Below are positions 4,184 to 61,589 of a DNA stretch of 64,000 nucleotides, piece after piece. Both the position numbers and the translations under genes were made by a program. The notes below the pieces were generated by a model that saw only the letters and a list, made by a program, of their open reading frames with translations, searched no databases and was not told the DNA's origin. The first letter of the stretch is position 1. Every line of letters begins with the position of its first letter. Origin of the DNA: Roseivivax sp. GX 12232 (GTDB taxonomy: Bacteria > Pseudomonadota > Alphaproteobacteria > Rhodobacterales > Rhodobacteraceae); the NCBI RefSeq assembly GCF_021272185.1, contig NZ_JAJSEC010000009.1:62001-126000 (forward strand). Direction: 5' to 3'.

Positions 4184-5416
4184 TCACCCCCCAGTCGCCG
4201 CGCGATACCAGGTGACGATCTCCGCGCGCGCCTCCTCGGACATGGCGAAGGCGCCCGGGGGCGGCATGGCGTGGCTGCGCCCGGCCTGCAGGTAGACCTC
4301 CTGGGCGTGGCGCGCGACATCGCCCTCGGTCTCGAGCACCACGCCCTTGGGCGGCCAGTGCATCCCCTCCCAGGAGGGCTCGCGGGCGTGGCACATGGAG
4401 CAATTGCCGATGACGGCGAAATAGGCGGCCTCGAAGCCCTCGGCCTCGGCAAACTGCGCCTCGGCGGGGCTGAGCGGGCGGGCCTGCGCCTCCTCGTAGC
4501 TCTCGCCCCCGGGCACGGTCGAGAGCCAGGCGATCACCAGCATGATCAAGACCGTCACGCCCCAGGTCCAATGCGGCCCCCGCCCGGTGGCATGCATGGT
4601 GTTGAAGTAATGCCGGATGGTGACCCCGGTCAGGAAGATCAGCGAGGCGATCACCCAGGCGTATTCCGTGCCGAAGGCCAGCGGGTAGTGGTTCGACAGC
4701 ATCAGGAAGACCACCGGCAGCGTCAGGTAGTTGTTGTGGGTCGAGCGCAGCTTGGCGATCTTGCCGTATTTCGGATCGGGCTTGCGGCCGGCCTTGAGGT
4801 CGGCGACCACGATGCGCTGGTTCGGCATGATGATGAAAAAGACATTGGCCGTCATGATCGTCGCGGTGAAGGCGCCGAGATGCAAAAGCGCCGCGCGGCC
4901 GGTGAAGACCTGGTCGTAGCCCCAGGCCATGACCACCAGGATCGCGAAGAGGATCAGCATCAGCGCCGTCGGTGTCTCGCCGAGCCGCGACTTGCAGAGC
5001 GCGTCATAGGCCAGCCAGCCGATGGTCAGCGAGCCGCCCGAGATCAGCACCCCCTGCCAGAGCGCGAGGTCCACCTTGCCGGGATCGAGAAGGAAAAGCT
5101 CGCCGCCGACCCAGTAGACGATCATCAGAAGCGCCGCGCCGGAAAGCCAGGTCGTGTAGCTCTGCCACTTGTGCCAGGTCAGATGCTCGGGCAGCCGGTC
5201 GGGGGCCACGAGATACTTGGTGGTGTGGTAGAAACCGCCGCCATGCACCTCCCATTCCTCGCCCGAGGCGCCCTCGGGCAGGTCCGGGGCCTCGCGCAGC
5301 ATGAGGTCGAGCGCGATGAAATAGAAGGAGGCCCCGATCCAGGCCATGGCGGTGATGACATGCAGCCAGCGGACCGAGAAGGCCAGCCAGTCCCAGATGA
5401 TCGCCAGATCGTACAT
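4184..5416 (-). CDS. puuD: Urate hydroxylase PuuD, membrane-bound with C-terminal cytochrome c domain
   Basis: The 410-residue protein starts the route from urate by oxidising it to 5-hydroxyisourate, passing electrons to the respiratory chain through its own cytochrome c domain rather than to O2 directly (known for this family). Eight or so hydrophobic helices span residues 10-310 (for example VRWLHVITAMAWIGASFYFI near the N-terminus). The C-terminal domain carries a c-type haem site, Cys339-Ser-Met-Cys342-His343. Length matches PuuD. It is read divergently from the LysR gene at 5522 and lies beside hydroxyisourate hydrolase and allantoinase genes, which supports the assignment. The ATG at 5414-5416 is the only plausible start. 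Confidence 0.93.
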   Translation of the reverse strand: MYDLAIIWDWLAFSVRWLHVITAMAWIGASFYFIALDLMLREAPDLPEGASGEEWEVHGGGFYHTTKYLVAPDRLPEHLTWHKWQSYTTWLSGAALLMIVYWVGGELFLLDPGKVDLALWQGVLISGGSLTIGWLAYDALCKSRLGETPTALMLILFAILVVMAWGYDQVFTGRAALLHLGAFTATIMTANVFFIIMPNQRIVVADLKAGRKPDPKYGKIAKLRSTHNNYLTLPVVFLMLSNHYPLAFGTEYAWVIASLIFLTGVTIRHYFNTMHATGRGPHWTWGVTVLIMLVIAWLSTVPGGESYEEAQARPLSPAEAQFAEAEGFEAAYFAVIGNCSMCHAREPSWEGMHWPPKGVVLETEGDVARHAQEVYLQAGRSHAMPPPGAFAMSEEARAEIVTWYRAATGG

Positions 5417-5521
5417 CGTCGCGCGCTCCCTCTCGGCTTCGGAATCACCGTCACCCTAGTGCAAAGCTCTTTGTTCTGGTATTTCTGACGAAAGCCAAGC
5501 AGCATCAAAAATTGCCGAATA
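5417..5521. promoter_or_regulatory. Divergent promoter region puuD / LysR
   Basis: A 105-base region separates the two divergent genes and is clearly less GC-rich than its flanks (TTTGTTCTGGTATTTCTG near 5470 and CAAAAATTGCCGAATAATG just before the LysR start). By analogy with LysR regulators, it should hold both promoters and the regulator's binding site. No exact box can be defined by eye. Confidence 0.5.
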
Positions 5522-6451
5522 ATGTCCTATCTCGACAACGTCCGCACCTTCGTCCGCGTCTACGAGCTGGGCAGCATGTCGGCGGCGGGGCGCGACCTGC
5601 GCGTCTCTCCGGCGGTGACCTCGGCGCGGATCTCGCAGCTCGAGGATCACCTGGGCGTGCGGCTCTTCCAGCGCACCACCCGCAGCCTCGCGCCGACCGA
5701 ACAGGGCAATGCCTTCTACCGCGGCGCGACCGACATCCTGGCGGCGGTGGAAAGCGCCGAGGCGCAGATCATGGACATCACCGAGAACCCGCGCGGCTCG
5801 CTTTACGTGGCCGCGCCGCTCGGCGTGGGCCGGCGGCTGATCGCGCCCCGGGTGCCGGAGTTCCTGGCCGAATACCCGCAGGTCAGCGTGCGGCTGCGGC
5901 TGACCGACCGCAAGGTCGACCTGACCACCGAAGGGCTGGACCTGGCCTTCTTCCTGGGCCAGCCCGAGGACAGCAACCTGCGCATCCGCAAGATCGCCGA
6001 CGTGGAGCGGGTGCTCTGCGCCGCGCCCGACTATATCGCCGCGCGCGGGCTGCCCCGGCAGGGCGAGGACCTGGTCTCGGGCGCGCATGAATGTCTGAAC
6101 CTGCGCTTTCCGGGCGCGACCGAGTTCCAGTGGCGGCTCGCCACGCCCGAGGGGCCGAAGCGCTTCCGGGTCTCGGGGCGCTACGAATCCGACGACGGGG
6201 ACGTGCTGACCGACTGGGCGCTGGCGGGCCATGGCATCGCGATGAAACCGGTCTTCGAGATCGCCGAACACCTGGCTTCGGGGGCGCTGGTCCCGGTGGT
6301 GACCGAGACCCCGCCCGAGCCGATCCAGATGGCCTGCCTTTACACCCACCGGCGCGGGCAGGACCCCAAGACGCGGCTCTTCATGGATTTCGTGATCGCG
6401 CGCATTGGCGATCTGATCCGCGCGCCCGGGGCGGGCGCGCCCGCGACCTAG
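5522..6451 (+). CDS. LysR-family transcriptional regulator, probable purine catabolism regulator
   Basis: The 309-residue protein has an N-terminal winged helix-turn-helix (about residues 1-62, with [20 protein letters not shown] as the HTH and [20 protein letters not shown] completing it) and a C-terminal periplasmic-binding-fold effector domain. Its placement between divergent puuD and convergent uraH suggests it controls urate degradation, with urate or a downstream intermediate as inducer (inference). There is no clear Shine-Dalgarno before the ATG. Its stop codon overlaps the 3' end of uraH by 4 bases on the opposite strand. Confidence 0.88.
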
Positions 6452-6801
6452 CTGCCGCGATAGGTCGAATAGCCGAAGGGCGAAAGCAGCAGCGGCACGT
6501 GGTAATGCGCCGCCTCCGACATGCCGAAGCGGATCGGGATCACGTCGAGAAAGCGCGGCTCTTCCGGCGGCACGCCCGCGGCGTCGAGATAGGCCCCGGC
6601 GTGGAACACCAGCTCGTAGCTGCCCTTGGCAAACTCCGCGGCCGGCAGGATCTGTTCGTCCGTGCGCCCGTCGTCATTGGTGGTCAGCGTCTTCAGGTGC
6701 TGCCGCGCCTCACCCTCGATGCGGTAGAGGTCGATCCTGAGCCCCGCCGCGGGGCATCCGCGTGCGGTGTCGAGCACATGGGTCGTCAGATATCCACTCA
6801 T
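6448..6801 (-). CDS. uraH: 5-Hydroxyisourate hydrolase (transthyretin-like)
   Basis: The 117-residue protein hydrolyses the PuuD product 5-hydroxyisourate to OHCU. Family hallmarks are the N-terminal [17 protein letters not shown] with the active-site His, the central Arg in [10 protein letters not shown], and the C-terminal YSTYRGS tetrapeptide signature (YRGS) preceded by [13 protein letters not shown]. Length is typical for a cytosolic HIUase without a signal peptide. AGGAG lies upstream of the ATG at 6801. It is divergent from the allantoinase/OHCU decarboxylase gene that acts next, so the pair shares an intergenic control region. Confidence 0.95.
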
Positions 6802-6888
6802 CGGCGTCTCTCCTCGCAGCTGGGACCGTTCTATGGTGGAGAGGTGGCACAGGCCAAGCGCCGGCGCCAGAAGGCTGCTTTTAGATTT

Positions 6889-6914
6889 TTTTGATAATGG
6901 CGCGGCATTTTTCG
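6889..6914. promoter_or_regulatory. Candidate operator shared with the allE promoter, copy 1
   Basis: The 26-base segment reads TTTTGATAATGGCG, then CGGC, one base, then TTTTTCG. The same order of blocks occurs at 18105-18133 upstream of allE with only 3 extra bases. Here it lies 88 bases upstream of the minus-strand uraH start and about 35 bases upstream of the plus-strand puuE start. Identity of the binding protein is unknown; the LysR at 5522 is the nearest candidate. Confidence 0.5.
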
Positions 6915-6948
6915 TCATATGAACGCAAGAAACCGGAGGAGTGCCAAT

Positions 6949-8361
6949 TTGACCCGCTATCCCCGCGACATGACCGGATATGGTGCCACCCCGCCCAAGG
7001 CCGACTGGCCGGGCGGCGCGAAGATCGCCGTGCAGATCGTGCTGAACTACGAAGAGGGCGGCGAGAACAACATCCTGCACGGGGATGCGGCCTCGGAGGC
7101 CTTCCTGTCGGAGATCACCGGCGCCCAGCCCTGGCCGGGCCAGCGGCACTGGAACATGGAGACGATCTACGACTACGGCGCGCGGGCCGGGTTCTGGCGG
7201 GTGCACCGGATGCTCTCGGACCTGCCGGTCACGGTCTATGGCGTGGCCACCGCGCTGGCGCGCGGGCCCGAACAGGTCGCCGCGATGCAGGCCGCCGGCT
7301 GGGAGATTGCGAGCCACGGGCTGAAGTGGGTCGAACACAAGGACATGCCCCCCGAGGAGGAGCGCGCCCAGATCCGCGAGGCGATCCGGCTGCACACCGA
7401 GGTCACCGGGCGCGCGCCGCGCGGCTGGTACACCGGGCGCTGTTCGATGAACACCGTGGAGCTGGCCGCCGAGGAGGGCGATTTTGCCTATATCTCCGAC
7501 AGTTACGCCGACGACTTGCCCTATTGGGTGAAGGCGGGCGGCAAGGATCAGCTGATCCTGCCCTACACGATGGATTGCAACGACATGCGCTTCGCGATCC
7601 AGGCGGGCTTCACCACCGGCGAGCAGTTCGAGAGCTACCTCAAGGACAGCTTCGACATGCTTTATGCCGAGGGTGAGGCGGGCGCGCCGAAGATGCTCTC
7701 GATCGGGCTGCACTGCCGGCTGATCGGGCGGCCGGGCCGGGCCATGGCGCTGAAGCGCGCCCTCGATCACATGCGCGCCCACGAGGGTGTCTGGTTCGCC
7801 ACCCGCGAGGACATCGCCGAGCATTGGGCGCGCGCGCATCCCCCCGAGCACCGCGCCCGCCCCTCCGAGATGGACCGGGAGACCTTCGTCGCCGAGTTCG
7901 GCGGCATCTTCGAGCACAGCGCCTGGATCGCCGAGGGCGCCCATGCGCTGGAGCTGGGCCCCGCGCATGACAGCGCCACGGGCGTGCACAACGCGCTGGC
8001 GCGGATCTTCCGCAGCGCCGACGACAGCCGCCGCATGGGCGTGCTGACCGCGCACCCCGACCTTGCCGGCAAGCTCGCCGCCGCCAAGCGGCTGACGGCC
8101 GAATCGACCGCCGAACAGGCCTCGGCGGGGCTCGATGCGCTGACCGACGCGGAGCGCGCGGGCTTCACCGAGCTGAACGACGCCTATACCGCCAAATTCG
8201 GCTTCCCCTTCATCATCGCGGTGCGCGACCACGACAAATCCTCGATCATGGCGGCCTTCCGCGCCCGGCTCGACAACGACCGCGCCACCGAGTTCGAGAC
8301 CGCCTGCGCCCAGGTCGAGCGCATCGCCGAGCTGCGCCTGCGCGAGAAGCTCGGCACATGA
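6949..8361 (+). CDS. puuE: Bifunctional allantoinase PuuE / OHCU decarboxylase
   Basis: The 470-residue protein fuses two enzymes of urate breakdown. Residues about 15-300 are a polysaccharide-deacetylase-fold allantoinase ([42 protein letters not shown]), which opens allantoin to allantoate. Residues about 315-465 are 2-oxo-4-hydroxy-4-carboxy-5-ureidoimidazoline decarboxylase, with the catalytic HPDLAGK at 369-375, the [10 protein letters not shown] segment and [14 protein letters not shown]. It therefore performs the step before and the allantoinase step after (S)-allantoin formation. I prefer the TTG at 6949, which has a strong GGAGGA 8 bases upstream; an in-frame ATG at 6919 would destroy that spacing. 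It overlaps allA by 4 bases. Confidence 0.93.
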
Positions 8362-8843
8362 GCCGCGAGATCACCCTCGAGCCGCTGACCGCGGCGGCTT
8401 TCGCCCCCTTCGGCGACCTCTTGGAGGTCGCGGGGCCGCCGGACAAGCTGATCAACCAGGGGCTCTGCGGGCGGCACCATGACCGCGCGCGGCTCGATTT
8501 CGGGGACGGTCGGGCGGGCATCAGCCTCTTCGACGCCGAGCCCCGCGCGCTGCCGCTCGACCTCGAGATGGTGGAACGCCACCCCGAGGGCAGCCAGGCT
8601 TTCCTGCCGATGACGCAGGCGCCCTTCCTGGTGGTGGTGGCGCCCGACGCAGGCGGCGCGCCGGGCCAACCGCGGGCCTTCCTGACCAGCCCGGGGCAGG
8701 GCGTGAACTATCACCGGGGCACCTGGCACGGGGTGCTGACGCCCCTGTCCGCCCCGGGGCTTTTCGCGGTCGTCGACCGCATCGGCGCGGGATCCAACCT
8801 GGAGGAACATTGGTTCGACGCGCCTTATCGCATCGTCGCCTGA
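8358..8843 (+). CDS. allA: Ureidoglycolate lyase
   Basis: The 161-residue protein belongs to the AllA cupin-like family, which splits ureidoglycolate into glyoxylate and urea. Visible signatures are [14 protein letters not shown] at the N-terminus, [17 protein letters not shown], the [12 protein letters not shown] segment, [15 protein letters not shown] and [14 protein letters not shown] with the conserved His residues. Length is typical (160-170). The ATG at 8358 overlaps the puuE stop codon (ATGA), so translation is coupled. The glyoxylate released here is the entry substrate of the bhc operon 6 kb away, which gives the region a continuous logic. Confidence 0.94.
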
Positions 8844-8894
8844 CGAGAACCGCCGGTTGAGGAGCCGGCTGCCGCATCAAAGGGAGGGAACACC

Positions 8895-10319
8895 ATGGCT
8901 GATGCATCCATCGGGACCGCGGAGGAGCTGCGCGACCCCAATTACACGCCGCCCATCGCACAGGCGGTGCCGCTCGGCATCCAGCACGTGCTGGCGATGT
9001 TCGTCTCGAACGTCACCCCGGCGATCATCGTCTGCGGCGCGGCGGGCTTCGGCTTCGGCTCGAACAGCCCCGACTTCCCCGAGATGATCTACATGATCCA
9101 GATGAGCATGTTCTTCGCGGGCATCGCCACGCTCTTCCAGTCGATCGGCGTGGGCCCGGTGGGCGCGCGGCTGCCGATCGTCCAGGGCACGAGCTTCGCC
9201 TTCATCCCGATCATGATCCCGCTGGTCGCGGGCAAGGGCGTCGACGCCATCGCGGTCTTGATGGGCGGCGTGCTGGTCGGCGGCCTCTTCCACGCGGTGC
9301 TGGGCCTGTTCATCGGGCGCATCCGCTTCGCGCTGCCGCCCCTGGTGACCGGCCTCGTGGTGACCATGATCGGCCTGGCGCTGGTGAAGGTCGGCATCCA
9401 GTATGCCGCGGGCGGCGTCCCGGCGATCGACACGCCGGAATACGGCTCGGCGCTGAACTGGTCGATGGCGGGCGTGGTGATCCTGGTGACCCTGGCGCTG
9501 AAGTTCTTCGCCCGGGGCATGCTGTCGCTTTCGGCTGTGCTGCTGGGGCTTCTGGCGGGCTATGCCTTCGCCTTCGTCATGGGGCAGGTGAACCTCGGCA
9601 ATGTCGGCCGCGCGGCGAGCTTCGCGCTGCCCGATCCGCTGCACTTCGGGCTCGAGTTCTCGGTCGCGGCGATCCTGGGCTTCTGCCTCATGGCCTTCGT
9701 CTCGGCGGTCGAGACGGTGGGTGACGTCTCGGGCATCACCAAGGGCGGCGCGGGCCGCGAGGCCACCGACCGCGAGATCCAGGGCGCGACCTATGCCGAC
9801 GGTTTCGGCACCGCGATCTCGGGGCTCTTCGGGGCGCTGCCCAACACCTCCTTCAGCCAGAACGTCGGGCTGATCGCCATGACCGGCGTGATGAGCCGCC
9901 ACGTGGTGACCATCGGGGCGCTCTTCCTGATCGCCTGCGGGCTGGTGCCGAAGATCGGCGCGGTGATCTCCTCGGTGCCGATCGAGGTGCTGGGCGGCGG
10001 CGTGATCGTGATGTTCGGCATGGTGGTCGCGGCGGGCATCTCGATGCTGTCGGATGTGACCTGGAACCGCCGCAACATGGTGATCTTCGCGATTGCCCTG
10101 TCGCTGGGCCTGGGCCTGCAGCTCGAGCCCAACGCGCTGCAATACCTGCCGGGCACGCTGAAGGTGCTGGCGACCTCGGGCATCCTGCCCGCGGCGCTGA
10201 TCGCCATCGTGCTGAACCTGGTGCTGCCCGAGGAGCTGTCCGGTGAGAGCACCGAGGAGGTCTCGGGCGGCATGTCCGGCCACGCGCGCGGCAGCTTCAC
10301 CCGCGACGAACGCGGGTGA
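8895..10319 (+). CDS. uacT: NCS2-family urate/xanthine:proton symporter
   Basis: The 474-residue inner-membrane transporter has about 12-14 hydrophobic helices and the NCS2 signature QNVGLIAMTG at residues 322-331, plus the N-terminal LGIQHVLAMFVSNVTPAIIV block with the conserved Gln-His and the VQGTSFAFIP motif. NCS2 proteins of this subgroup import urate or xanthine with protons. The start at 8895 follows GGGAGGG. It lies 51 bases after allA and completes the plus-strand puuE-allA-permease operon. The C-terminal tail after residue 450 is hydrophilic (SGESTEEVSGG). Substrate is inferred from context; urate is most likely, but xanthine is possible. Confidence 0.9.
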   Translation: MADASIGTAEELRDPNYTPPIAQAVPLGIQHVLAMFVSNVTPAIIVCGAAGFGFGSNSPDFPEMIYMIQMSMFFAGIATLFQSIGVGPVGARLPIVQGTSFAFIPIMIPLVAGKGVDAIAVLMGGVLVGGLFHAVLGLFIGRIRFALPPLVTGLVVTMIGLALVKVGIQYAAGGVPAIDTPEYGSALNWSMAGVVILVTLALKFFARGMLSLSAVLLGLLAGYAFAFVMGQVNLGNVGRAASFALPDPLHFGLEFSVAAILGFCLMAFVSAVETVGDVSGITKGGAGREATDREIQGATYADGFGTAISGLFGALPNTSFSQNVGLIAMTGVMSRHVVTIGALFLIACGLVPKIGAVISSVPIEVLGGGVIVMFGMVVAAGISMLSDVTWNRRNMVIFAIALSLGLGLQLEPNALQYLPGTLKVLATSGILPAALIAIVLNLVLPEELSGESTEEVSGGMSGHARGSFTRDERG

Positions 10320-10457
10320 GGTCAGGGCGGGGGGCCTTTCGAGGGCCCTCGCTTGCGCCGGGGTGCGGTGGTGGTGCGGTTTAGGCCGGGCGGGAGACGA
10401 TGGGTGCTGATCTCTCACGCTTGGCCCGGCGCGCGCCGCACCCCGCGCCTTGGCGCC

Positions 10458-10498
10458 AACGACAAAAGGCGGCGCTCTGTGCGCCGCCTTTTGTCGTT
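10458..10498. terminator. Perfect 18-bp stem bidirectional terminator
   Basis: An 18-bp perfect stem (10458-10475 with 10481-10498) has a 5-base loop. The arms contain GACAAAAGGCGGCGC, so an A-tract precedes and a T-tract follows the GC core, as in bidirectional Rho-independent terminators. It lies 139 bases after the uacT stop codon and faces the bhc operon on the other side. Confidence 0.8.
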
Positions 10499-10644
10499 CT
10501 GGGGCTGCTTTCACGGCCCACTGAGCGTGGACTGCGGCGAAGTGCGGACCGCTGCCCTTCGTCGCGACCACAAGCGATTGAACATTCGCTTAGCTCCACC
10601 CGCCGTCAGGCCGCCCTAACCACAACCACCCCATTCAGTGCATC

Positions 10645-10993
10645 GCGCCGTCCCATCCACCCGCTGCGCCCGGACCGCGCCGCAGGCGCAGGGCGCGCGC
10701 CGGACCGACCCGGCGGTCTGGCGCTCTTGTGGGCGGTCTGCGCCGTTCGACGGGCGGAGGAACATGGCATCCATAAATCGCATCGCTCAGAGGTCGGCCG
10801 CGCCGTCCCATCCACCCGCTGCGCCCGGACCGCGCCGCAGGCGCAGGGCGCGCGCCGGACCGGCCCGGCGGTCTGGCGCTCTTGTGGGCGGCGCGCGCCA
10901 TTCGTCCGATAGAGGAACATGGCCGCCATAAAGCGCGTCGCTCAGAGGTCGGCAGCGCCAGCCCCCGGTCCGCCGCGCGCCCTGCGCCTGCGG
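10645..10993. repeat. 155-bp tandem duplication of a dispersed inverted-repeat element
   Basis: A unit of about 155 bp occurs twice (10645-10799 and 10800-10954), followed by a third right-hand arm. The second copy has 29-bp inverted arms, 10835-10863 and 10965-10993, with a single mismatch; the first copy's left arm is 10680-10708. The arm core GGGCGCGCGCCGGACCGG and the right-flank block TCGCTCAGAGGTCGGCAGCG are shared with the elements at 2864-3000 and 16869-17005, so this is the same repeat family in a longer-armed form. Confidence 0.8.
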
Positions 10994-11082
10994 CTGGCGT
11001 GGGATGTGCTGCGCGGTCTAAGCGGGTTGCTGACGGATGAGCGGGACACCCACGGTAGGCCATCGTCCAAACCCGTCCCCCT

Positions 11083-11114
11083 CAAAAACAAAACGGCCGG
11101 GCATTCGCCCGGCC
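11083..11114 (-). terminator. Rho-independent terminator of the bhc operon
   Basis: On the minus strand an 8-bp perfect stem (11107-11114 with 11095-11102) and a 4-base loop are followed by a T-rich run (complement of AAAAACAAAA at 11084-11093). It lies 38 bases past the bhcD stop codon. Confidence 0.85.
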
Positions 11115-11151
11115 ATCCCGCCTCGCTCCAAACCGCGAGAAAGCCTCCGCG

Positions 11152-12117
11152 TCAGACCTCCACCTCGATCGCCACGCCTTTCTCCACCGCCAGGTCCACC
11201 ACGGCGGCGGCGACGGCGAGGTCCTGCAGCCCGACCCCGGTGCCGTCGAACAGCGTGATCTCCTCGTCCGAGCGGCGCCCGGGGTCGTCGCCGTTGATCA
11301 CCGCACCGAGCGTCTGGATGTCGCCCTCGCCGATCAGCCCCGAGGCCACCGCGTGCTGCGCCTCGCCGAGGCTCACTGCCTGCGCCACCTCGTCGGTGAA
11401 GACCCGGGCACGGGCCAGGAGCGCCGGGTCGACCTCCTGCTTGCCCTTGGTGTCGGTGCCCATGCAGGCCAGATGCGTGCCGGGCGCCACCTGGTCGGCC
11501 CCGAGGATCGCCGCGAAGGAGGAGGTGATCGAGACGATCACATCCGCCGCATGCATCTCGTCCAGCTCGACCGCCTGGAAGGGCACGCCGGCGCCGCGGG
11601 CGACCTCTTCGAGGCCGGGCAGCATCTCGGGGTGCAGGTTCCAGCCGATCACCTTCTCGAAGGCGCGCTGTTCGAGCGCCGCGCGCAGCTGGAACTTCGC
11701 CTGGTGGCCCGCGCCGATCATGCCGAGGACCCGCGCGTCGCGCCGCGCCAGGTGCCGGATCGAGACCGCCGAGGCCGCCGCCGTCCGCAGCGCGGTCAGA
11801 AGATTGCCGCCGACCATGGCCCGGGGCCGCCCGGTGTCGGGATCGAAAAGGAAGACCGTCGACTGGTGGTTGATGATCCCCTTTGTTTCGAGATTGTTCG
11901 GCCAGTAGCCCCCGGCCTTCAGCCCCAGCGTCAGGCCCGAGCGGTCGAAACCGCCCTTGAAGCCGTAGAGCGCGTCCTCGTGGCCCAGGGCCTCGCGCAC
12001 CACGGGGAAGTTGTAGGCCTGGCCCGCGGCCATGGCGGCGAAGACCGCCTCGACGGCGTCAAAGGCCGCCTCGCGGGTCATCAGGTCGGCGATCTCGTGC
12101 TCGGGCACGATCAGCAT
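11152..12117 (-). CDS. bhcD: Iminosuccinate reductase BhcD
   Basis: The 321-residue protein belongs to the ornithine cyclodeaminase/mu-crystallin family. In the beta-hydroxyaspartate cycle it reduces iminosuccinate to L-aspartate with NAD(P)H, regenerating the amino donor. The N-terminal substrate domain contains Lys54 and Lys67 (YGFKGG, LGLKAGGYWPNN). The Rossmann part carries VLGMIGAGHQAKFQ near residue 132 and the later CMGTDTKGKQEV. The ATG at 12117 has GGAGG upstream; longer readings run into the intergenic gap. It is last in bhcABCD. Family membership alone would allow an amino-acid dehydrogenase or cyclodeaminase; the operon decides the call. Confidence 0.92.
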   Translation of the reverse strand: MLIVPEHEIADLMTREAAFDAVEAVFAAMAAGQAYNFPVVREALGHEDALYGFKGGFDRSGLTLGLKAGGYWPNNLETKGIINHQSTVFLFDPDTGRPRAMVGGNLLTALRTAAASAVSIRHLARRDARVLGMIGAGHQAKFQLRAALEQRAFEKVIGWNLHPEMLPGLEEVARGAGVPFQAVELDEMHAADVIVSITSSFAAILGADQVAPGTHLACMGTDTKGKQEVDPALLARARVFTDEVAQAVSLGEAQHAVASGLIGEGDIQTLGAVINGDDPGRRSDEEITLFDGTGVGLQDLAVAAAVVDLAVEKGVAIEVEV

Positions 12118-12232
12118 GTCTGTCCTCCGTCCGAAATTCGTGCGTCCGCGCGCCACCGCCGGAGGGCGGGCATACGCCGCGGACGGCTTCCCGGCCCCTC
12201 GCGGGCCGGGCCCTCCAGATTGCGCGGGGGCC

Positions 12233-13396
12233 TCAGTAGGCCTTGCCGCGCGCCGAGACCGGCCAGAGCGTCTCGACCTTGCCGCCCCGCACGCCGACGT
12301 ACCAGTCGTGCACATTGGCGGTCGGGTCGCAGTGGCCGGGCACCAGGCGCAGCTTCTCTCCGACCTTGAGGACGCCCTCGGGGTCGGCGATCACCCCGTG
12401 TTCGTCCGAGCATTTCACGTATTCCACGTCGGTGCGGCCGAAGATCACCGGCAGCCCGCTGTCGACCGATTGCGCCTTGAGGCCGGCGTCACAGATCGCC
12501 TTCTCCGCCTTGGCGTGGCTCATCACCTGCGTCAGGAGGAACATCGCGTTCTCCCATTCGCCCTGGTCGATGCGCTTGCCCTCGGCGTCGAGGATGCGGC
12601 CGTAATCGGCATCCATGAAGGCATAGGAGCCGCATTGCAGCTCATTGTAGACGCCCGAATTGCTCTCGAAATAATACGACCCGGTACCGCCGCCGCCGAC
12701 GATGTCGCAGGAGAGGCCCTTGTCCTTCAGCCCGTCCACGGCGTCCTTTACCATGGCGACCGCCACGTCGATCTTGGCCTTGCGATCCTCGTAGCTGTCG
12801 AGGTGTTGCATGGCACCCTGGTAGGCCTGGATGCCGGCGAACTTCAGCCCCGGCGCGGCGTCGATGGCCTCTGCGATCTCGATCACCGCAGGCGTGGTGG
12901 TCACGCCGCAGCGGCCCGCGCCGCAGTCGATCTCGACCAGGCATTCGATCTCGGTGCCGTGCTTTTCGGCCGCCGCCGAAAGCTCGGCCACATTGGCCAG
13001 GTCATCGACGCAGCAGATCGTCCGCGCGCCGAGCTTCGGCATCCGCGCCAGCCGGTCGATTTTCTGCGGGTCGCGCACCTGGTTCGAGACCAGCACGTCG
13101 GTGATCCCGCCCCGGGCGAAGACCTCGGCCTCGGAGACCTTCTGGCAGCAGACCCCGCAGGCGCCGCCCAGCTCGACCTGGAGCTTCGCCACGTCGACGG
13201 ATTTGTGCATCTTGCCGTGCACCCGGTGGCGCATGCCATGGGCGCGGGCGTAATCGCCCATCTTCTTGATGTTGCGTTCGAGCGCGTCGAGGTCGAGCAC
13301 CAGGCAGGGGGTCTGGATCTCGTCCGCCGACATGCCGGGCAGGGCGGGGACGTCGAAGCCGACCTCGAGGTCGGAAAGCGAGAGGGGGGCGTTCAT
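12233..13396 (-). CDS. bhcC: beta-Hydroxyaspartate aldolase BhcC
   Basis: This 387-residue PLP enzyme has the D-threonine-aldolase (fold type III, alanine-racemase-like) architecture. In the cycle it condenses glycine and glyoxylate into (2R,3S)-beta-hydroxyaspartate. The N-terminal IQTPCLVLDLDALERNI begins the barrel, and the cofactor Lys is probably Lys62 in HRVHGKMHKS. The EIDCGAGRCGV segment binds cofactor phosphate, and GGGGTGSYYFES follows. The C-terminal beta domain holds the metal-binding His and Cys (LVPGHCDPTANVHDWYV). AGGAG lies 7 bases before the ATG. In isolation it would be called a D-threonine or 3-hydroxyaspartate aldolase; the operon makes BhcC the best call. Confidence 0.94.
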   Translation of the reverse strand: MNAPLSLSDLEVGFDVPALPGMSADEIQTPCLVLDLDALERNIKKMGDYARAHGMRHRVHGKMHKSVDVAKLQVELGGACGVCCQKVSEAEVFARGGITDVLVSNQVRDPQKIDRLARMPKLGARTICCVDDLANVAELSAAAEKHGTEIECLVEIDCGAGRCGVTTTPAVIEIAEAIDAAPGLKFAGIQAYQGAMQHLDSYEDRKAKIDVAVAMVKDAVDGLKDKGLSCDIVGGGGTGSYYFESNSGVYNELQCGSYAFMDADYGRILDAEGKRIDQGEWENAMFLLTQVMSHAKAEKAICDAGLKAQSVDSGLPVIFGRTDVEYVKCSDEHGVIADPEGVLKVGEKLRLVPGHCDPTANVHDWYVGVRGGKVETLWPVSARGKAY

Positions 13397-13477
13397 GGGG
13401 CGTCTCCTGTTGTCAGGTCTGTCTCGGTTTGCGCGGGGCCCGGGCGCGAAGCCCGGCCCTCGCTTTGGAAAGAGTGC

Positions 13478-14446
13478 TCAGCCCGCCATCCAGGGCAGGC
13501 GGTCGAGGTCGACATTGCCGCCGGTCACGACCACACCGACGCGCTTGCCGGCGAAGCGCTCGCGGTTCTTCAGGATCACCGCCAGGGGCACCGCGCAGGA
13601 GGGCTCCATGACGATCCGCAGGTATTTCCACGTGATCTTCATGGCCTCGACGATCTCTTCCTCCGAGGCGGTGAGGATGTCGCTGACGTGGTTCGACACG
13701 AAGTGCCAGGTCAGGTCCTTGAGCGGCACCTTCAGCCCGTCGGCGATGGTCTCGGGCGCGTCGTCGGCGATGATATGCCCGGCCTTGAAACTGCGCATCG
13801 CGTCGTCGGCCTGCTCGGGCTCGGCGGCGATGATCTGCACCTCGGGCGCCAGGGTCGAGAGCGTCAGGCAGGTGCCCGAGATCATGCCGCCGCCGCCGAT
13901 CGGCGCGGTGACGATGTCGAGCCCCTCGGTCTGTTCCATCAGCTCCTTCGAGCAGGTGCCCTGGCCCGCGATCACGCGCGGATCGTTGTAGGGATGCACG
14001 AACTCGCCGCCGGTCTCCTGCTGGACGCGGGCGAAGACCTCCTCGCGCGAGGAGGTCGAGGGCTCGCATTCGGTGACCTGGCCGCCGTAGCGCCGCACCG
14101 CGTCCTTCTTGGCCTGGGGCGCGGTCTTCGGCATGACCACGTTGCAGGGGATGCCGCGCCGCCCGGCGGCATAGCTCAGACAGAGCGCGTGGTTGCCCGA
14201 GCTGTGCGTCGCCACGCCCAGCCTGGCCTGGTCCTCGTCGAGGCCGAAGACCGCGTTCGAGGCGCCGCGCACCTTGAAGGCGCCGGGCTCCTGCAGGTTC
14301 TCGCATTTGAAGAACAGCTTCGCGCCGGTCAGATCGTCCAGGTGATCCGAGGTCAGCACCGGGGTGCGGCGGATATGCGGGCGGATGCGGTCGTGCGCGG
14401 CCAGCATGTCCTCGTAGGTCGGGATATACATCGGGGCATCCTTCAT
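13478..14446 (-). CDS. bhcB: beta-Hydroxyaspartate dehydratase BhcB
   Basis: This 322-residue fold-type II PLP enzyme of the serine/threonine dehydratase family removes water from beta-hydroxyaspartate to give iminosuccinate. The Schiff-base lysine is Lys58 in EPGAFKVRGA, substrate loop SSGNHA follows at about residue 83, and the phosphate-binding GGGGMISG lies near residue 185. Single-domain length excludes biosynthetic IlvA, which has a regulatory ACT domain. The ATG at 14446 shares one base with the bhcA stop codon (TGATG), so translation is coupled. An alternative in-frame ATG lies at 14431. Order A-B-C-D matches characterised bhc operons. Confidence 0.94.
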   Translation of the reverse strand: MKDAPMYIPTYEDMLAAHDRIRPHIRRTPVLTSDHLDDLTGAKLFFKCENLQEPGAFKVRGASNAVFGLDEDQARLGVATHSSGNHALCLSYAAGRRGIPCNVVMPKTAPQAKKDAVRRYGGQVTECEPSTSSREEVFARVQQETGGEFVHPYNDPRVIAGQGTCSKELMEQTEGLDIVTAPIGGGGMISGTCLTLSTLAPEVQIIAAEPEQADDAMRSFKAGHIIADDAPETIADGLKVPLKDLTWHFVSNHVSDILTASEEEIVEAMKITWKYLRIVMEPSCAVPLAVILKNRERFAGKRVGVVVTGGNVDLDRLPWMAG

Positions 14447-15636
14447 CAGGCGGCGTCCTTGTGCAGCAGCGCCGGGTGGCCGCGGTAGTAGTCCTGCGCC
14501 GCCGCGACGCCGGAGCCCAGGGTAATCTCGAGCCCGAGGTCCTTCATGCACATCTCCGCCGTGGCGATGCCCGAGAGGGTCATCACGTCGGTGAGGCTGC
14601 CGAGGTGGCCGATGCGGAAGACCTTGCCCGCGACCTCGCCGAGGCCGACGCCGAAGGCCACGCCATAGGTCTCGGCGGCATGGGTGACGATGCGCGTGGC
14701 GTCGAAGCCATCAGGCGTGCGGATCGCGCTGACGGTGTCGGAATAGACCTCGGGCGAGGTGGCACAAAGCTCGAGCCCCCAGGCCGCGACCGCGGCGCGG
14801 ACACCCTCGGCGATGCGGTGGTGACGGGCGAAGACATTCTCCAGCCCCTCTGCGAGCAGCATCCCGCAGGCCTCGTTCAGCCCGTTCATCAGCCCCACGG
14901 CGGGGGTATAGGGATAGGCGCTGTTGGCGTAGCCCTTGGCCATGTCGTGCACGTCGAAGAAGGTGCGCGGCAGGCGGGCGGTCCTGGTGGCCTCCATGGC
15001 GCGCGCCGAGAAGCCGGTGATCGCGAGGCCCGCGGGCAGCATGAAGCCCTTCTGCGAGCCGGTGACCGCGACATCGACGCCCCAGTCGTCGAAGCGGAAG
15101 TCCATCGAGCCGATGGAGCTGACGCCGTCGACGAAAAGGAGCGCGGGATGGCCCGCCGCATCCATCGCCCGGCGCACCGCGCCGATGTCCGAGCGCACGC
15201 CGGTCGCCGTCTCGTTGTGGGTGGCGAGCACGGCCTTGATCTCATGGCCTGTGTCGGCGCTCAGGATCTCTGCGTAGCGGTCGGCGGGGATGCCCGCGCC
15301 CCAGGGGGTCTCGACGATCTCCACCTCGAGCCCGTGGCGCTGGCACATGTCGATCCAGCGGTGGCTGAACATGCCGTTCCGCGCCGCCAGCACCTTGTCG
15401 CCGGGCGAGAGCGTGTTGCTCAGCGCCGTCTCCCAGCCGCCGGTGCCGGTCGCGGGGAAGATGAAGACCTCGGCGCTGTCGCTCTTCAGGATCCGCCGCA
15501 CACCCGCGCGGGCGGGGTGCAGGATCTCGCCGAAGAGCGGCGAGCGGTGGTCGATCGTCGGCATGTCGCAGGCCTTGCGCAGCCGTTCGGGGATATTGGT
15601 CGGCCCCGGAATGAAAACCGGATTCTGAAAGCTCAT
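14446..15636 (-). CDS. bhcA: Aspartate:glyoxylate aminotransferase BhcA
   Basis: This 396-residue class V aminotransferase, of the serine-glyoxylate aminotransferase type, transaminates glyoxylate to glycine with L-aspartate as donor, giving oxaloacetate as the net product of the cycle. Visible features are the N-terminal FIPGPTNIPERL, the ATGTGGWE phosphate-binding segment at residue 62, the VDGVSSIG loop with the cofactor-binding Asp170, and the PLP lysine Lys196 in TGSQKGFMLPAGL. GGAGGGAG lies upstream of the ATG. First gene of the minus-strand operon, divergent from bhcR. Alone it could be serine-glyoxylate or alanine-glyoxylate aminotransferase; the full cluster supports BhcA. Confidence 0.94.
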   Translation of the reverse strand: MSFQNPVFIPGPTNIPERLRKACDMPTIDHRSPLFGEILHPARAGVRRILKSDSAEVFIFPATGTGGWETALSNTLSPGDKVLAARNGMFSHRWIDMCQRHGLEVEIVETPWGAGIPADRYAEILSADTGHEIKAVLATHNETATGVRSDIGAVRRAMDAAGHPALLFVDGVSSIGSMDFRFDDWGVDVAVTGSQKGFMLPAGLAITGFSARAMEATRTARLPRTFFDVHDMAKGYANSAYPYTPAVGLMNGLNEACGMLLAEGLENVFARHHRIAEGVRAAVAAWGLELCATSPEVYSDTVSAIRTPDGFDATRIVTHAAETYGVAFGVGLGEVAGKVFRIGHLGSLTDVMTLSGIATAEMCMKDLGLEITLGSGVAAAQDYYRGHPALLHKDAA

Positions 15637-15804
15637 CGGTGACTCCCTCCGTCGATGCAGACAGGATACGCCGGGGCGCGTCTCGGGGAAATTTTTTTAA
15701 AACCATTTTTCAGAAATGCGGGTGGCGGGATTTTTCGCCCGTTGTCAGGGGTTTGCGTTTTTCATATCGTGGGGGCGTTTTTCAGGGAAATGCGAAGGTG
15801 TGTC
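15637..15804. promoter_or_regulatory. Divergent bhcA/bhcR control region with repeated TTTTTCAG motif
   Basis: The 168-base intergenic region is unusually AT-rich for this genome. It has a direct repeat: TTTTTCAGAAATGCG at 15706-15720, and TTTTTCAG, GG, AAATGCG at 15778-15794. Further TTTTTC occurrences lie near 15731 and 15758. BhcR of Paracoccus is a glyoxylate-responsive IclR regulator acting on this promoter, so these repeats are candidate BhcR sites. The second repeat sits directly before bhcR and would fit autoregulation. Confidence 0.55.
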
Positions 15805-16641
15805 ATGGAGAACCCGAAGACCGGCGCCCGGCGGGCCCGGGGGCGGCCGCGCCACTGGGACGACAAGACCGATCAGAACGTCATCAAGTCGCTCGATCGG
15901 GCGATGGAAGTCTTCGAGTTCCTGAGCGAGGCCCAGGGCAAGGCGCTGACCGTGATCGCCGCCGAGATGGGCCAGTCGCCGGCCACGGTCTACCGCATCC
16001 TGATCACCCTCGAGGGGCGCGGGCTGGTCGAATTCGACGCCGAGGAGCAGCTCTGGCACATCGGCCCGCGCGCCTTCGTGATCGGCGCGCGTTTCCTGCG
16101 CCGCACGAGCCTGGTCGACCGCGCCCGCCCGGTCCTCCGCAAGCTCATGGAGACCACCGGCGAGACCGCCAACCTCGGGGTCGAACGCGAGGGCTCGGTG
16201 CTCTTCCTGAGCCAGGTCGAGACCCATGCCAGCATCCGCGCCTTCTTCCCACCGGGGACGCTTTCGCCGATGCATGCATCGGGGATCGGCAAGGCGCTCC
16301 TGGCGCATATGGACGCCGCGCGGCTCGACCGGCGGCTGGCCGAGGGCGGTCTCGGGGCCTTCACCGGCCGGACGATCACCGCGCCCGAGGCGCTGCGGGC
16401 GGATCTGGCCGAGATCCGCGCCCGGGGCTACGCGGTGGACGACGAGGAGAAGAACGCCGGGATGCGCTGCATCGCGGCGCCGGTCTTCGACATGACCGGC
16501 GAGGCGGTGGCCGGGATCTCCGTCTCCGGCCCGACGAGCCGGGTCGCGCGGGAAGAGATCGCCCGCTTGAGCGCCGCCGTCATGGCCGCCGCGCGCGAGC
16601 TGAGCGCCGCGGTGGGCGGGACGGTTGGGGGTGAGGGGTGA
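15805..16641 (+). CDS. bhcR: IclR-family regulator BhcR
   Basis: The 278-residue protein has an N-terminal winged helix-turn-helix (residues about 28-90, VIKSLDRAMEVFEFL and SPATVYRILITLEGRGLVEF) after a basic leader (GARRARGRPRHWDD). A C-terminal IclR effector domain follows (NLGVEREGSVLFLSQVE, the FFPPGTLSPMHASGIGKALLA block and GMRCIAAPVFDMTGEAVAGIS). BhcR proteins bind glyoxylate and control the cycle. It is read divergently from bhcABCD, as in Paracoccus. The ATG at 15805 follows GAAGGTG; an upstream in-frame start at 15790 is possible but has a poorer ribosome site. Confidence 0.93.
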   Translation: MENPKTGARRARGRPRHWDDKTDQNVIKSLDRAMEVFEFLSEAQGKALTVIAAEMGQSPATVYRILITLEGRGLVEFDAEEQLWHIGPRAFVIGARFLRRTSLVDRARPVLRKLMETTGETANLGVEREGSVLFLSQVETHASIRAFFPPGTLSPMHASGIGKALLAHMDAARLDRRLAEGGLGAFTGRTITAPEALRADLAEIRARGYAVDDEEKNAGMRCIAAPVFDMTGEAVAGISVSGPTSRVAREEIARLSAAVMAAARELSAAVGGTVGGEG

Positions 16642-17176
16642 GGGCGGGGCTCCAAGTGAGGTGAGATAGCGCTGGCTATGCGGAGTGAATCGCGGCTGGC
16701 TGCCCGGAGGATGCCGAGGAAGCGGAAGCGCGCGAGTAGCGATGAGTGAGGGTTTCCGAGGGGGCTTGAAACGAAGCCCTCCAGCGCGAGGCAGCCCTGC
16801 CAACCTAGGAGCAGCTTGGTCCCGCAGTCACCGCGCTCCCCTTGCGCCCGAATAGCATCGAAGATGCCGGGCGCGCGCCGGACCGGCCCCTTGGGCCGGC
16901 GCTCCTGTGAGTGGTGCGCCTAACTCACCCCTAGCCCTGACCTTGCCGGGATAAAGCGCCTCGCTCAGAGGTCGGCAGCGCCGGCCCCCGGTCCGGCGCG
17001 CGCCCTCTGGTGTGCGGGGTGAGAGGGGGCGGGCGTTGAGGTCTCGCCTGCCTTGTGGCGGTTCTTCTGCGTTTGCATTGGGTCGGAGTTGGGCTTCTGC
17101 TCTTTGGCAGGCAAAAAGCATCAAAGGCGACGGCCACGACGCTCAAGCGAGCACCAAAACCGCCCCCGCTACCCCC
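16642..17176. other. Intergenic region between bhcR and allE
   Basis: This 535-base gap separates the convergent bhcR and allE genes. It contains the inverted-repeat element copy B. A weak hairpin pairs CTT..AAG ends of the segment GAGGGGGCTTGAAACGAAGC near 16756-16780 and may terminate bhcR. Otherwise I see nothing supportable; open frames here read through repeats and lack ribosome sites. Confidence 0.65.
16869..17005. repeat. Dispersed inverted-repeat element, copy B
   Basis: A 137-bp element has perfect 18-bp inverted arms (16869-16886 and 16988-17005), identical in arm sequence and total length to copy A at 2864-3000. The core matches with few differences, including the shared block GGTGCGCCTAACTCACCCCT. 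Similarity reaches outward to about 16845 and 17021. Two near-identical copies 14 kb apart, plus the related unit at 10645-10993, define a repeat family of this genome. Confidence 0.85.
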
Positions 17177-18010
17177 TCACCGCCCTCCGCGCGGCCGCAG
17201 CGGCATGTGCCGGTTCACGTCCTTGTAGAGCAGATACCGGAACGGCCCCGGGCCGCCGGCGTAGCAGGCCTGCGGGCAGAAGGCGCGCAGCCACATGAAG
17301 TCGCCGGCCTCGACCTCGACCCAGTCGCGGTTCAGCCGGTAGACCGCCTTGCCCTCGAGCACGTAGAGCCCGTGCTCCATCACATGGGTCTCGAGGAAGG
17401 GGATCACCGCGCCGGGCTGCAGCGTGACGATGGTCACATGCATGTCGTGGCGCAGATCGGTGGGATCGACGAAGCGCGTGGTGGCCCAGCGGCCCTCGGT
17501 GCCGGGCATGGGCGCGGGGGCGATGTCGGCCTCGTTCAGGACCAGCGGCTCGGGCGCCGAGAGCCCCGGCGCGGGCTCATAGGCCTTGCGGATCCAGTGG
17601 AAGCGCAGCGTCTCCGTCCCCCGGTTCCAGAGCGTCCATCCCGAGGAGGGCGGCAGATAGGCGTAGCCCCCCGGGGTCAGCTCGTGGGTCTCGCCGCCGA
17701 CCTCGAGAAGCGCGCTGCCTGCGACGACGAACAGCACACCCTCGGCCTCGGGATCGCTTTCGGGGGCGTCGGAGCCGCCGGCAGGGGCGACCTCCATGAT
17801 GTATTGCGAGAAGGTCTCGGAGAAGCCGCTCATCGGGCGGGCCAGCACCCAGAGGCGGGTGCCCTCCCAGCCGGGCAGGAAGCTCGTCACGATGTCGCGC
17901 ATGGTGCCGCGGGGCAGCACGGCATAGGCCTCGGTGAAGACCGCGCGGTCGGTCAGGAGCTGGTCCTGGCCGGGGTGGCCGCCGGTCGGGGCGTAATAGG
18001 GGACACTCAT
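17177..18010 (-). CDS. allE: (S)-Ureidoglycine aminohydrolase
   Basis: The 277-residue bicupin protein releases ammonia from (S)-ureidoglycine to give (S)-ureidoglycolate, the substrate of AllA. The N-terminal cupin (about 60-130: EGVLFVVAGSALLEVGG, GGYAYLPPSSGWTLWN) and C-terminal cupin (about 190-265) are both visible. The metal site lies in the latter: IPFLETHVMEHGLYVLEG provides Glu, His and further ligands. Length is typical for AllE. The start at 18010 follows GGAGC. It is separated from the other purine genes by the bhc operon but shares an upstream motif with uraH, which supports co-regulation. Confidence 0.9.
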   Translation of the reverse strand: MSVPYYAPTGGHPGQDQLLTDRAVFTEAYAVLPRGTMRDIVTSFLPGWEGTRLWVLARPMSGFSETFSQYIMEVAPAGGSDAPESDPEAEGVLFVVAGSALLEVGGETHELTPGGYAYLPPSSGWTLWNRGTETLRFHWIRKAYEPAPGLSAPEPLVLNEADIAPAPMPGTEGRWATTRFVDPTDLRHDMHVTIVTLQPGAVIPFLETHVMEHGLYVLEGKAVYRLNRDWVEVEAGDFMWLRAFCPQACYAGGPGPFRYLLYKDVNRHMPLRPRGGR

Positions 18011-18104
18011 CGCGGCTCCGGGCTTGGGGGATGGATGTGCCCGATAATGGCCCCCGCGCGCGCGGGCTGCCACCCGGCGCGGGGCGGGAAGTCTTTTCGG
18101 GAAG

Positions 18105-18133
18105 TTTTGATAATGGCGGGCGGCTCTTTTTCG
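18105..18133. promoter_or_regulatory. Candidate operator shared with the uraH/puuE promoter, copy 2
   Basis: The 29-base segment reads TTTTGATAATGGCG, GG, CGGC, TC, TTTTTCG. It matches the segment at 6889-6914 block for block. It is 95 bases upstream of the allE start, in the same orientation and at nearly the same distance as copy 1 is from uraH (88 bases). Shared position and orientation suggest a common regulator for uraH and allE. Confidence 0.5.
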
Positions 18134-59646: not shown

Positions 59647-59670
59647 GCCAGGACAAGGGAGATCAGCGAC

Positions 59671-60978: not shown

Positions 60979-60987
60979 GCGGTGAGG

Positions 60988-61019
60988 ACCGGCGCGGCGG
61001 CGGTCGCGCCGGTTTTTTT
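60988..61019 (+). terminator. Rho-independent terminator of preTA
   Basis: A perfect 9-bp stem (60988-60996 with 61005-61013) and 8-base loop lead into a seven-T run (61013-61019). It lies 9 bases past the preA stop codon. Confidence 0.88.
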
Positions 61020-61103
61020 GATGAGGGTTGGGGTTGTGTGTTGGATGCGTTTTTCGTTGGGCTGAGGTGTTCGGCTCTACCCAGCACTTGTGGACTTTTG
61101 CTT

Positions 61104-61184
61104 GGGCGCGCACGCATCTTCGCGCCCTTAAGTCGAGAAAATTAGATAATTTTCTCGACCACGATGTTAGATAACATCGTGGTC
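61104..61184. repeat. Three adjacent hairpins, two with identical AGAT loops
   Basis: Hairpin 1 has 7-bp arms (61104-61110 and 61121-61127). Hairpin 2 has perfect 12-bp arms GTCGAGAAAATT (61132-61143) and its complement (61148-61159) around AGAT. Hairpin 3 has perfect 12-bp arms GACCACGATGTT (61157-61168) and its complement (61173-61184), again around AGAT. Hairpins 2 and 3 share the GAC at 61157-61159. The block is AT-richer than the genome. It might be a structured RNA end, a recombination or protein site, or a bidirectional terminator. Confidence 0.75.
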
Positions 61185-61553: not shown

Positions 61554-61589
61554 GCCCGCGATCCTGCCGCGCGCAGGGTGAATATTGCG

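Follow-up and report, generated by a model that had tools for sequence, protein, structure and literature searches.

The genes of the β-hydroxyaspartate (BHA) cycle, bhcABCD, and their regulator gene bhcR lie within a cluster for urate and allantoin degradation in Roseivivax sp. GX 12232, and this linkage is conserved in a substantial part of the family. The locus occupies positions 4184-18010 of a 64,000-nucleotide stretch (hereafter, the window; G000:C38:62001-126000, where C38 is the contig). We consider it likely that the locus is a supercluster leading from urate to oxaloacetate under relay control, in which bhc acts as a general glyoxylate sink. The BHA cycle and each of the purine enzymes are already known, and their conserved joining appears to be the new element.

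Conserved linkage between bhc and purine genes

The family was sampled with 198 genomes, one per genus. BhcC was present in 106 of them (E up to 1e-100; 84 above the curated cut-off), and AllA and PuuD were present in 181 and 188 genomes, respectively. We analyzed regions of up to 20 kb around all 108 listed BhcC places outside the Roseivivax genome (105 genomes), some of which were cut by contig ends. At our thresholds, complete bhcABCD was found in 78 regions (77 genomes); the other 30 were cut, partial, or contained lone aldolase genes. At least one of puuD, uraH, puuE-uraD, allA, uacT, and allE was located within about 10 kb in 30 of the 78 complete regions, three or more in 25, and all six in 14. 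Where long flanks were available on both sides, 25/62 regions were linked. puuE occurred in 25 of the complete regions, compared with about 0.4 expected by chance under a simple uniform model that ignores relatedness.

The arrangement of the linked genes was also conserved. In the linked family regions, allA (26/26), puuE-uraD (25/25), and uacT (19/19) were on the bhcD side and transcribed towards bhc, and allE was on the bhcA side in 19 regions and on the bhcD side in 5. In an unsupervised census of neighbors, the families with strong recurrence were those of the seven cluster genes, each found in 16 to 25 regions, and of one gene resembling glyceraldehyde-3-phosphate dehydrogenase (GAPDH; 20 regions). 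Two similarly ranked families were shadow open reading frames (ORFs) of bhc genes, as judged by eye, and the next real families were found in at most 5 of the 78 regions. No other glyoxylate sink was recognized among the recurrent families of 38 comparison regions that were centered on allA or puuD and had no bhc adjoining them; 18 of these regions came from genomes lacking BhcC and 20 from genomes with bhc at another place. bhc is the sole sink module repeatedly observed beside these purine genes.

The linkage was also observed in named organisms. Of the best 80 loci in a scan of named genomes, in which more exist, 70 had complete bhcABCD; at least one purine gene accompanied it in 20 of these 70, and three or more in 17. 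The linked loci include those of Marivita, Roseivivax jejudonensis, Rhodophyticola, Palleronia sediminis, Planktomarina (a metagenome-assembled genome), Roseovarius albus, and Roseibacterium/Roseicyclus. Furthermore, 119 plasmid records contained BhcC, and 21 of these were typed as conjugative. Twenty plasmid regions were hand-picked for variety (two unannotated, analyzed by tblastn), and purine genes were beside bhc in 10 of them, a count that does not represent a frequency. The plasmids of Leisingera methylohalidivorans, L. caerulea, and Ruegeria sp. AD91A showed the gene order of the window, with NCBI's own gene names. The purine linkage was rearranged in the SC52 plasmid region, and xdhC-permease-guaD-allE adjoined bhc in that of Pseudosulfitobacter. 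Three Paracoccus and two Methylobacterium plasmid regions also carried purine genes beside bhc, built differently from the window (in another order in Methylobacterium). In the two annotated Paracoccus plasmids, bhcA-B-C-D and the genes for a permease, 8-oxoguanine deaminase, and uraH were co-directional, separated by short intervals or none. In these plasmids, we saw no stem plus T-run behind bhcD; in strain SMMA_5, such a structure followed uraH. From this layout, purine genes may be read from the bhc promoter in Paracoccus, the genus in which the cycle was worked out. Five of the 20 regions had neither purine nor glycolate genes; one of these was a lone aldolase and one had bhcB and bhcC only.

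The earlier note on this DNA had proposed to look for co-occurrence of bhc and purine genes in relatives. Such co-occurrence was found in the family, the named loci, and the plasmid regions, and the absence of linkage from related genomes, which the note had given as a ground for refutation, was not observed.

Gene content of the Roseivivax locus

The features of the locus are listed in Table 1; all named genes are intact ORFs. The purine genes comprise puuD, lysR, uraH, a puuE-uraD fusion, allA, an NCS2 permease gene, and allE, and bhcDCBA-bhcR forms a single contiguous block with the permease gene on one side and allE on the other. puuE-allA-permease is read rightward, bhcDCBA leftward towards it, bhcR rightward, and allE leftward. 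These opposed directions mean that the purine and bhc sets cannot form one transcript in the Roseivivax genome. The two sets had been described as interleaved; the purine genes do surround bhc, which is nevertheless one bracketed block and not mixed with them gene by gene.

Table 1. Genes, promoter motifs, and spacer of the locus, in window coordinates
Feature	Position	Strand	Evidence
puuD, membrane urate hydroxylase with C-terminal cytochrome c (urate to 5-hydroxyisourate)	4184..5416	-	Urate_ox_N 440 bits
lysR-type regulator gene, divergent from puuD; suggested regulator of purine units	5522..6451	+	HTH_1, LysR_substrate
uraH, hydroxyisourate hydrolase	6448..6804	-	TIGR02962 127.8 bits, cut-off 87
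purine promoter motif (CTTTC, spacer, TTTTTTGAAAA type), uraH/puuE gap	6875..6898	+	28.3 bits, model from 32 other loci
puuE-uraD fusion, allantoinase PuuE and 2-oxo-4-hydroxy-4-carboxy-5-ureidoimidazoline (OHCU) decarboxylase	6919..8361	+	TIGR03212 503 bits (cut-off 425), TIGR03164 205 bits (cut-off 96), one ORF
allA, ureidoglycolate lyase, frees glyoxylate and urea	8358..8843	+	NF002952 298 bits, cut-off 260
NCS2 permease, urate/xanthine type	8895..10319	+	TIGR03173 (xanthine-permease subfamily) 430 bits, cut-off 414
spacer with 155-bp direct repeat and inverted repeats	10320..11151	.	no GAPDH-like gene seen within
bhcD, iminosuccinate reductase	11152..12120	-	NF045643 580 bits, cut-off 500
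bhcC, 3-hydroxy-D-aspartate aldolase	12233..13396	-	NF045642 764 bits, cut-off 690
bhcB, β-hydroxyaspartate dehydratase	13478..14449	-	NF045641 591 bits, cut-off 550
bhcA, L-aspartate-glyoxylate aminotransferase	14446..15636	-	NF045640 758 bits, cut-off 650
bhc promoter motif (consensus TGAAAAANNTTTTCAAAAAAATTG, read towards bhcA), bhcA/bhcR gap; possible BhcR site	15689..15712	-	26.4 bits, model from 46 loci without urate/allantoin linkage
bhcR, IclR-family regulator	15805..16641	+	NF045644 407 bits, cut-off 350; longest ORF start 15655
allE, (S)-ureidoglycine aminohydrolase	17177..18010	-	NF008373 519 bits, cut-off 445
purine promoter motif upstream of allE	18091..18114	+	22.9 bits, second-best match in window

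The complete bhcABCD-bhcR set claimed in the earlier note was confirmed: the four enzyme genes are present and intact, all products exceed the curated NCBIfam cut-offs, and the divergent IclR-type bhcR shares with bhcA a conserved promoter region containing the bhc motif. Over their full lengths, BhcC and BhcD also align with the solved 6qkb (689 bits) and with 6rqa (474 bits), respectively. PuuD combines the membrane domain, whose match spans residues 6-299 (cut-off 27), with a CXXCH cytochrome; the C-terminal cytochrome match reached 21.5 bits, under the Pfam cut-off of 27, and a CSMCH heme motif was identified by eye. The purine genes listed earlier are all there, with two refinements. The PuuE and OHCU decarboxylase activities are encoded by a single fused gene, the true start of which, as judged by eye, is probably a TTG near 6949-6952, and the previously unlisted lysR gene belongs to the cluster, being a recurrent member of it; a 57% identical homologue adjoins the xdh genes of the same genome. 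The locus encodes an enzyme for every reaction between urate and glyoxylate apart from the conversion of allantoate to ureidoglycine, which is considered below. As a correction to the earlier note, pathway knowledge holds that the BHA cycle recycles its amino group and that its net product is oxaloacetate.

Several further features were observed around these genes. The two copies of the direct repeat in the spacer are 91% identical and, with the inverted repeats, lie at 10644-10953; some relatives have a GAPDH-like gene there. Directly behind bhcD, and read in the same direction, a GAPDH-family gene is present in 18 of the 78 complete regions (the family itself in 20), linked or not (L032, L037, L041, L043, L047, L049, L067, L081, L085-L088, L091, L092, L096, L099, L100, and L109), and adjoins bhcD on plasmids L271, L276, and L281. 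The idea that it encodes an erythrose-4-phosphate dehydrogenase supplying pyridoxal 5′-phosphate (PLP) was not supported; for the three proteins tested, the best model was GAPDH-I, and all models remained below cut-off. On the Limimaricola variabilis plasmid (L276), bhcABCD and the GAPDH-like gene adjoin two NCS1 permease genes and an Asp/Glu racemase-family gene, with urea-transport and gcvP genes nearby, perhaps representing an allantoin or hydantoin variant. Of the bhc genes, a 30-kb conjugative plasmid of Roseovarius mucosus (L290) carries just bhcB and bhcC, which follow genes for RidA and FAD-oxidoreductase; mercury-resistance genes are close by. Elsewhere in the window, 58318-63702 apparently encodes reductive pyrimidine catabolism, with a PreA dihydropyrimidine dehydrogenase subunit above cut-off, a partner resembling the glutamate synthase small subunit, an M20 amidase, and a TetR regulator resembling RutR at a score below cut-off.

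Promoter motifs and a putative relay

Motif searches revealed two distinct promoter elements. A purine motif (CTTTC, a spacer, and TTTTTTGAAAA) lies before puuE and before allE, which is transcribed separately; bhcA is preceded by a bhc motif (TGAAAAANNTTTTCAAAAAAATTG, read towards bhcA). When the purine model built from other loci was run over the window, the two best matches were those upstream of puuE and allE, which flank bhc, and the next reached 12.8 bits. The bhc model gave one strong match, that in the bhcA/bhcR gap, and the next reached 4.5 bits, overlapping shifts aside.

The two models were then compared across loci, where a hit was a promoter scoring above at least 98% of 50 of its own shuffles (2% expected; the linked sets include the window). 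The purine motif, trained on 32 other puuE promoters, was found before puuE in 25/31 and before allE in 16/25 linked loci, in 21/32 of its own training set, and before allE in 4/7 independent loci. Before bhcA, it was found in 3/31 linked and 12/46 unlinked loci. Conversely, the bhc motif derived from unlinked loci preceded bhcA in 30/31 linked loci and in 43/46 of the training set, and preceded puuE in 7/31 (10/31 with the model from linked loci). These cross-matches exceed the expected 2%, and a TTTCA/TGAAA half site is common to both motifs, which may be weakly related. A shared regulator for the purine and bhc genes was rejected, because the cross-tests keep the motifs largely apart. Given the separate motifs, coupling most likely occurs in relay through glyoxylate, which the purine enzymes would produce and to which BhcR would respond, and not through a shared switch. 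Four Marivita loci (L240, L263, L266, and L235) kept the bhc motif, and no bhcR was found in them between allE and bhcA.

A third match to the purine motif (17.8 bits; L150 1414-1437, G000:C38) lies in the gap that separates a LysR gene from a probable xdhA. The latter is the ORF, recognized by eye, that precedes xdhB (C38:3067-5340). This position suggests one regulon joining xanthine dehydrogenase, puuE, and allE. Twenty random 104 kb copies of the same dinucleotide make-up contained no purine matches at such scores. The third site has the form TTTCA-N9-TGAAA, which is the usual spacing of LysR-type sites. Because of this spacing and the LysR gene beside both purine units, LysR control of these units is a reasoned guess. 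For the bhc unit, BhcR of Paracoccus denitrificans is described as a glyoxylate-responsive activator; bhc expression depends on it and increases with glyoxylate (PMC11323563).

The proposed pathway would operate as follows. Urate would be imported by the NCS2 permease and converted by PuuD, UraH, UraD, and PuuE to allantoate, from which AllE, perhaps bifunctional or perhaps together with an AllC encoded elsewhere, and AllA would release glyoxylate and urea. BhcA would use aspartate to aminate glyoxylate to glycine, which would combine with a second glyoxylate to form β-hydroxyaspartate; dehydration to iminosuccinate and its reduction would regenerate aspartate, so that two glyoxylate would yield oxaloacetate. 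A purine signal, probably acting via the LysR protein of the cluster, would turn on puuE-allA-uacT, uraH, allE, and probably xdhAB, and the resulting glyoxylate would be sensed by BhcR, which would switch on bhcABCD. bhc would remain a general glyoxylate sink, glycolate-derived glyoxylate included. Of this scheme, the gene identities, the linkage with its orientation, and the two motifs are observed, and the flux, the inducers, and the pairing of proteins with motifs are inferred. The conserved neighborhood suggests that purines, besides glycolate, feed the BHA cycle, which has so far been studied as a glycolate route. If a sizeable fraction of bhc clusters, including those in relatives of the model organism, is embedded in uric-acid degradation, purines from nucleic acids would deliver further carbon to the cycle, and the carbon as well as the nitrogen of purines may be used by bacteria so far credited with taking the nitrogen alone. 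The analysis also yields gene-level predictions and candidate promoter sites for BhcR and a purine regulator.

Alternative explanations, history, and known systems

Several observations weigh against the urate-to-oxaloacetate reading. None of the six purine genes was found in the fetched stretch, sometimes cut by a contig end, of 48 of the 78 complete regions (one of the 48, L064, has guaD, xdhC, and a purine permease gene), and 14 of the 18 regions from genomes without BhcC contained a puuE-centered purine cluster without bhc. The presence of bhcC was independent of allA (98/106 versus 83/92 genomes, Fisher p 0.62) and weakly associated with glcD (101/106 versus 79/92, p 0.026, uncorrected for relatedness), which speaks against purines as the only reason for keeping bhc. 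In the Roseivivax genome, glyoxylate could also be supplied through a glcD homologue on C33 (440 bits against a cut-off of 568) and be consumed by malate synthase G, encoded on C1 (1048 bits, cut-off 989). glcDEF adjoins bhc in three plasmid regions (two Sinorhizobium, one Methylorubrum), and a hydroxyacid-oxidase-like gene is near bhc in 3 of the 80 named loci (L246, L262, and L269) and on one plasmid of the hand-picked set (L281, Agrobacterium; an alpha-hydroxy acid oxidase gene two genes from bhc). The purine and bhc genes also have different promoter motifs. Finally, no clear AllC, which converts allantoate to ureidoglycine, was found in the cluster. M20 homologues occur at three places in the Roseivivax genome, one of them in the pyrimidine cluster at 62.5 kb, and all score far below the AllC cut-off; among 146 bhc/allA regions, there was a single M20 match (33% identity, L126). 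AllE also fits NF040771, the model for bifunctional allantoicase/(S)-ureidoglycine aminohydrolase (496 bits, cut-off 350), the name that NCBI gives to the AllE proteins of Leisingera and Ruegeria; literature searches for the origin of the name "bifunctional allantoicase" found no source. If AllE is truly bifunctional, the locus would be gapless from urate to oxaloacetate. The earlier proposal that purine-derived glyoxylate is a physiological input of bhc is partly supported: the linkage is conserved, it recurs in other layouts, and the chemistry fits. The separate motifs, glcD, the glcDEF genes beside bhc on Sinorhizobium and Methylorubrum plasmids, malate synthase G, and the lack of tracking with allA speak against an exclusive link.

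Glycolate could instead be the real input, as in Paracoccus denitrificans, with the location in a purine cluster being an inherited historical accident. A glcD homologue is present in 180/198 genomes, including that of Roseivivax (E up to 1e-110; none reaches the E. coli-tuned cut-off), and is weakly commoner with BhcC, as noted; bhc keeps its own motif whether linked or not. Besides the glcDEF and oxidase neighbors mentioned above, glcDEF adjoins bhc in one named locus (L201), and another has glcF (L226); L203 and L267 gave distant glcD matches only (31% identity). In addition, a strain without the aldolase is reported to have used glycolate for energy only (PMC7574528). However, no match to glcD, glcE, glcF, or hydroxyacid oxidase (of the types tested) was found in the 108 family bhc regions, compared with urate genes in 30 of the 78 complete ones. 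Moreover, Paracoccus and Methylobacterium have bhc-purine linkages of another arrangement, and the Paracoccus purine genes are co-directional downstream of bhcD without a terminator seen between them. We regard this reading, with glycolate as the real input and the linkage as history, as unlikely. Purines might also serve for nitrogen only, with little glyoxylate formed and passed to malate synthase and bhc acting at most as a detoxifier. The malate synthase G of Roseivivax is indeed above cut-off, and nearly all sampled genomes of the family have purine genes, with bhc or without it. Nevertheless, this explanation, which seems improbable to us, does not account for bhc being the only multi-gene sink seen repeatedly next to purine genes; furthermore, malate synthase requires acetyl-CoA and permits no net assimilation of glyoxylate alone. 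gcl, encoding glyoxylate carboligase, was found in 0/198 family genomes, Roseivivax included, at E up to 1e-150, weaker homologues not being sought; an E. coli control was positive.

Proximity could also reflect shared transfer on the same plasmids or chromids and not shared function, as might be expected from the many plasmid records with BhcC, some of them conjugative, and from the scatter of linked loci over the bhc tree. This is very unlikely in our judgment: the side and orientation of puuE, allA, and uacT are invariant in the linked family loci, the linked L041, L063, L085, L089, and L097 are on contigs of 1 to 4 Mb, and purine genes are missing from some bhc loci on plasmids. In the tree of concatenated BhcABCD (79 rows), the linkage label needs 19 changes, 13 of them forced by well supported branches, compared with 24.5 on average for shuffled labels. 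Within the family, a single old linkage that was lost many times is likely, since side and orientation are invariant. Repeated independent insertion of bhc into a purine cluster within the family is disfavored by the same invariant orientation, although the tree alone needs the 19 changes. The position of allE also tracks bhc adjacency: allE was outside the purine operon in 21 loci and inside in 4 where bhc or the aldolase gene was adjacent, and outside in 6 and inside in 22 where it was not (Fisher p 6e-6; 10 rows without a placed allE were dropped, and the groups were chosen by different routes).

Five loci (L115, L122, L128, L134, and the cut L136) have a lone BhcC-like gene that closely follows allE in the same direction, and they have no bhcA, B, or D. 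In the genomes of the lone-aldolase loci, no BhcA came near the cut-off; the best matches, about 1e-81 to 1e-83, resemble the second aminotransferase of two complete genomes. In the four complete lone BhcC-like proteins, the PLP-lysine region and the PGHCDP motif, which we take to be catalytic, are conserved. L122 and L115 are placed immediately outside the full-cycle clade of the aldolase tree, where long branches meet; L102, a lone gene away from purine genes, is nearer to that clade, and the lone L123 is inside it. The four placeable lone-aldolase loci occupy four separate places in the PuuE tree, one beside the clade of the window, a placement that fits secondary reduction equally well. 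The one orientation across the bhc tree, the lone allE-linked aldolases, and the two that branch just outside the full-cycle clade led us to consider that the BHA cycle first arose or was assembled as an outlet for purine carbon from an allE-adjacent aldolase gene and was later freed for glycolate; we hold this origin to be doubtful.

The supercluster that we propose resembles three known systems. Like bhcABCD-bhcR of P. denitrificans, the window encodes four enzymes and a divergent IclR-type BhcR that pass the curated models; unlike it, the window's cluster is embedded in a urate/allantoin cluster, whereas the Paracoccus one is described for glycolate and glyoxylate in an account that, in the parts concerned, names purines only as a general glyoxylate source (PMC11323563). 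In the literature searched, no report joining the bhc and purine gene sets was found; the founding 2019 Nature paper was outside that scope, so an earlier report is possible. The window also shares a membrane urate oxidase with a cytochrome c domain, as described for Agrobacterium fabrum (PMC4562309), together with UraH, UraD, and PuuE, with PuuD-type urate catabolism, and differs in that its locus runs on to allA, allE, and a glyoxylate sink. In the allantoin cluster of E. coli K-12 (allS-allA-allR-gcl-hyi-glxR-allW-allB-ybbY-glxK-allE-allC-allD), purine-ring genes similarly enclose a glyoxylate-assimilation block (gcl-hyi-glxR) and the gene of an IclR-family regulator, AllR, which is reported to respond to glyoxylate (PMC11323563). 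BhcR of the window likewise belongs to the IclR family and adjoins the sink genes, the glyoxylate response being published for the Paracoccus protein (PMC11323563); with 146 bits against the E. coli AllR model (cut-off 406), it is not called AllR. The sink of the window is the BHA cycle and not the glycerate pathway of E. coli, no gcl was found to serve as the sink at E up to 1e-150, and the window starts at urate with PuuD. By analogy, the window is the BHA-cycle counterpart of the E. coli all-gcl cluster; it would work alike without being a member of that regulon.

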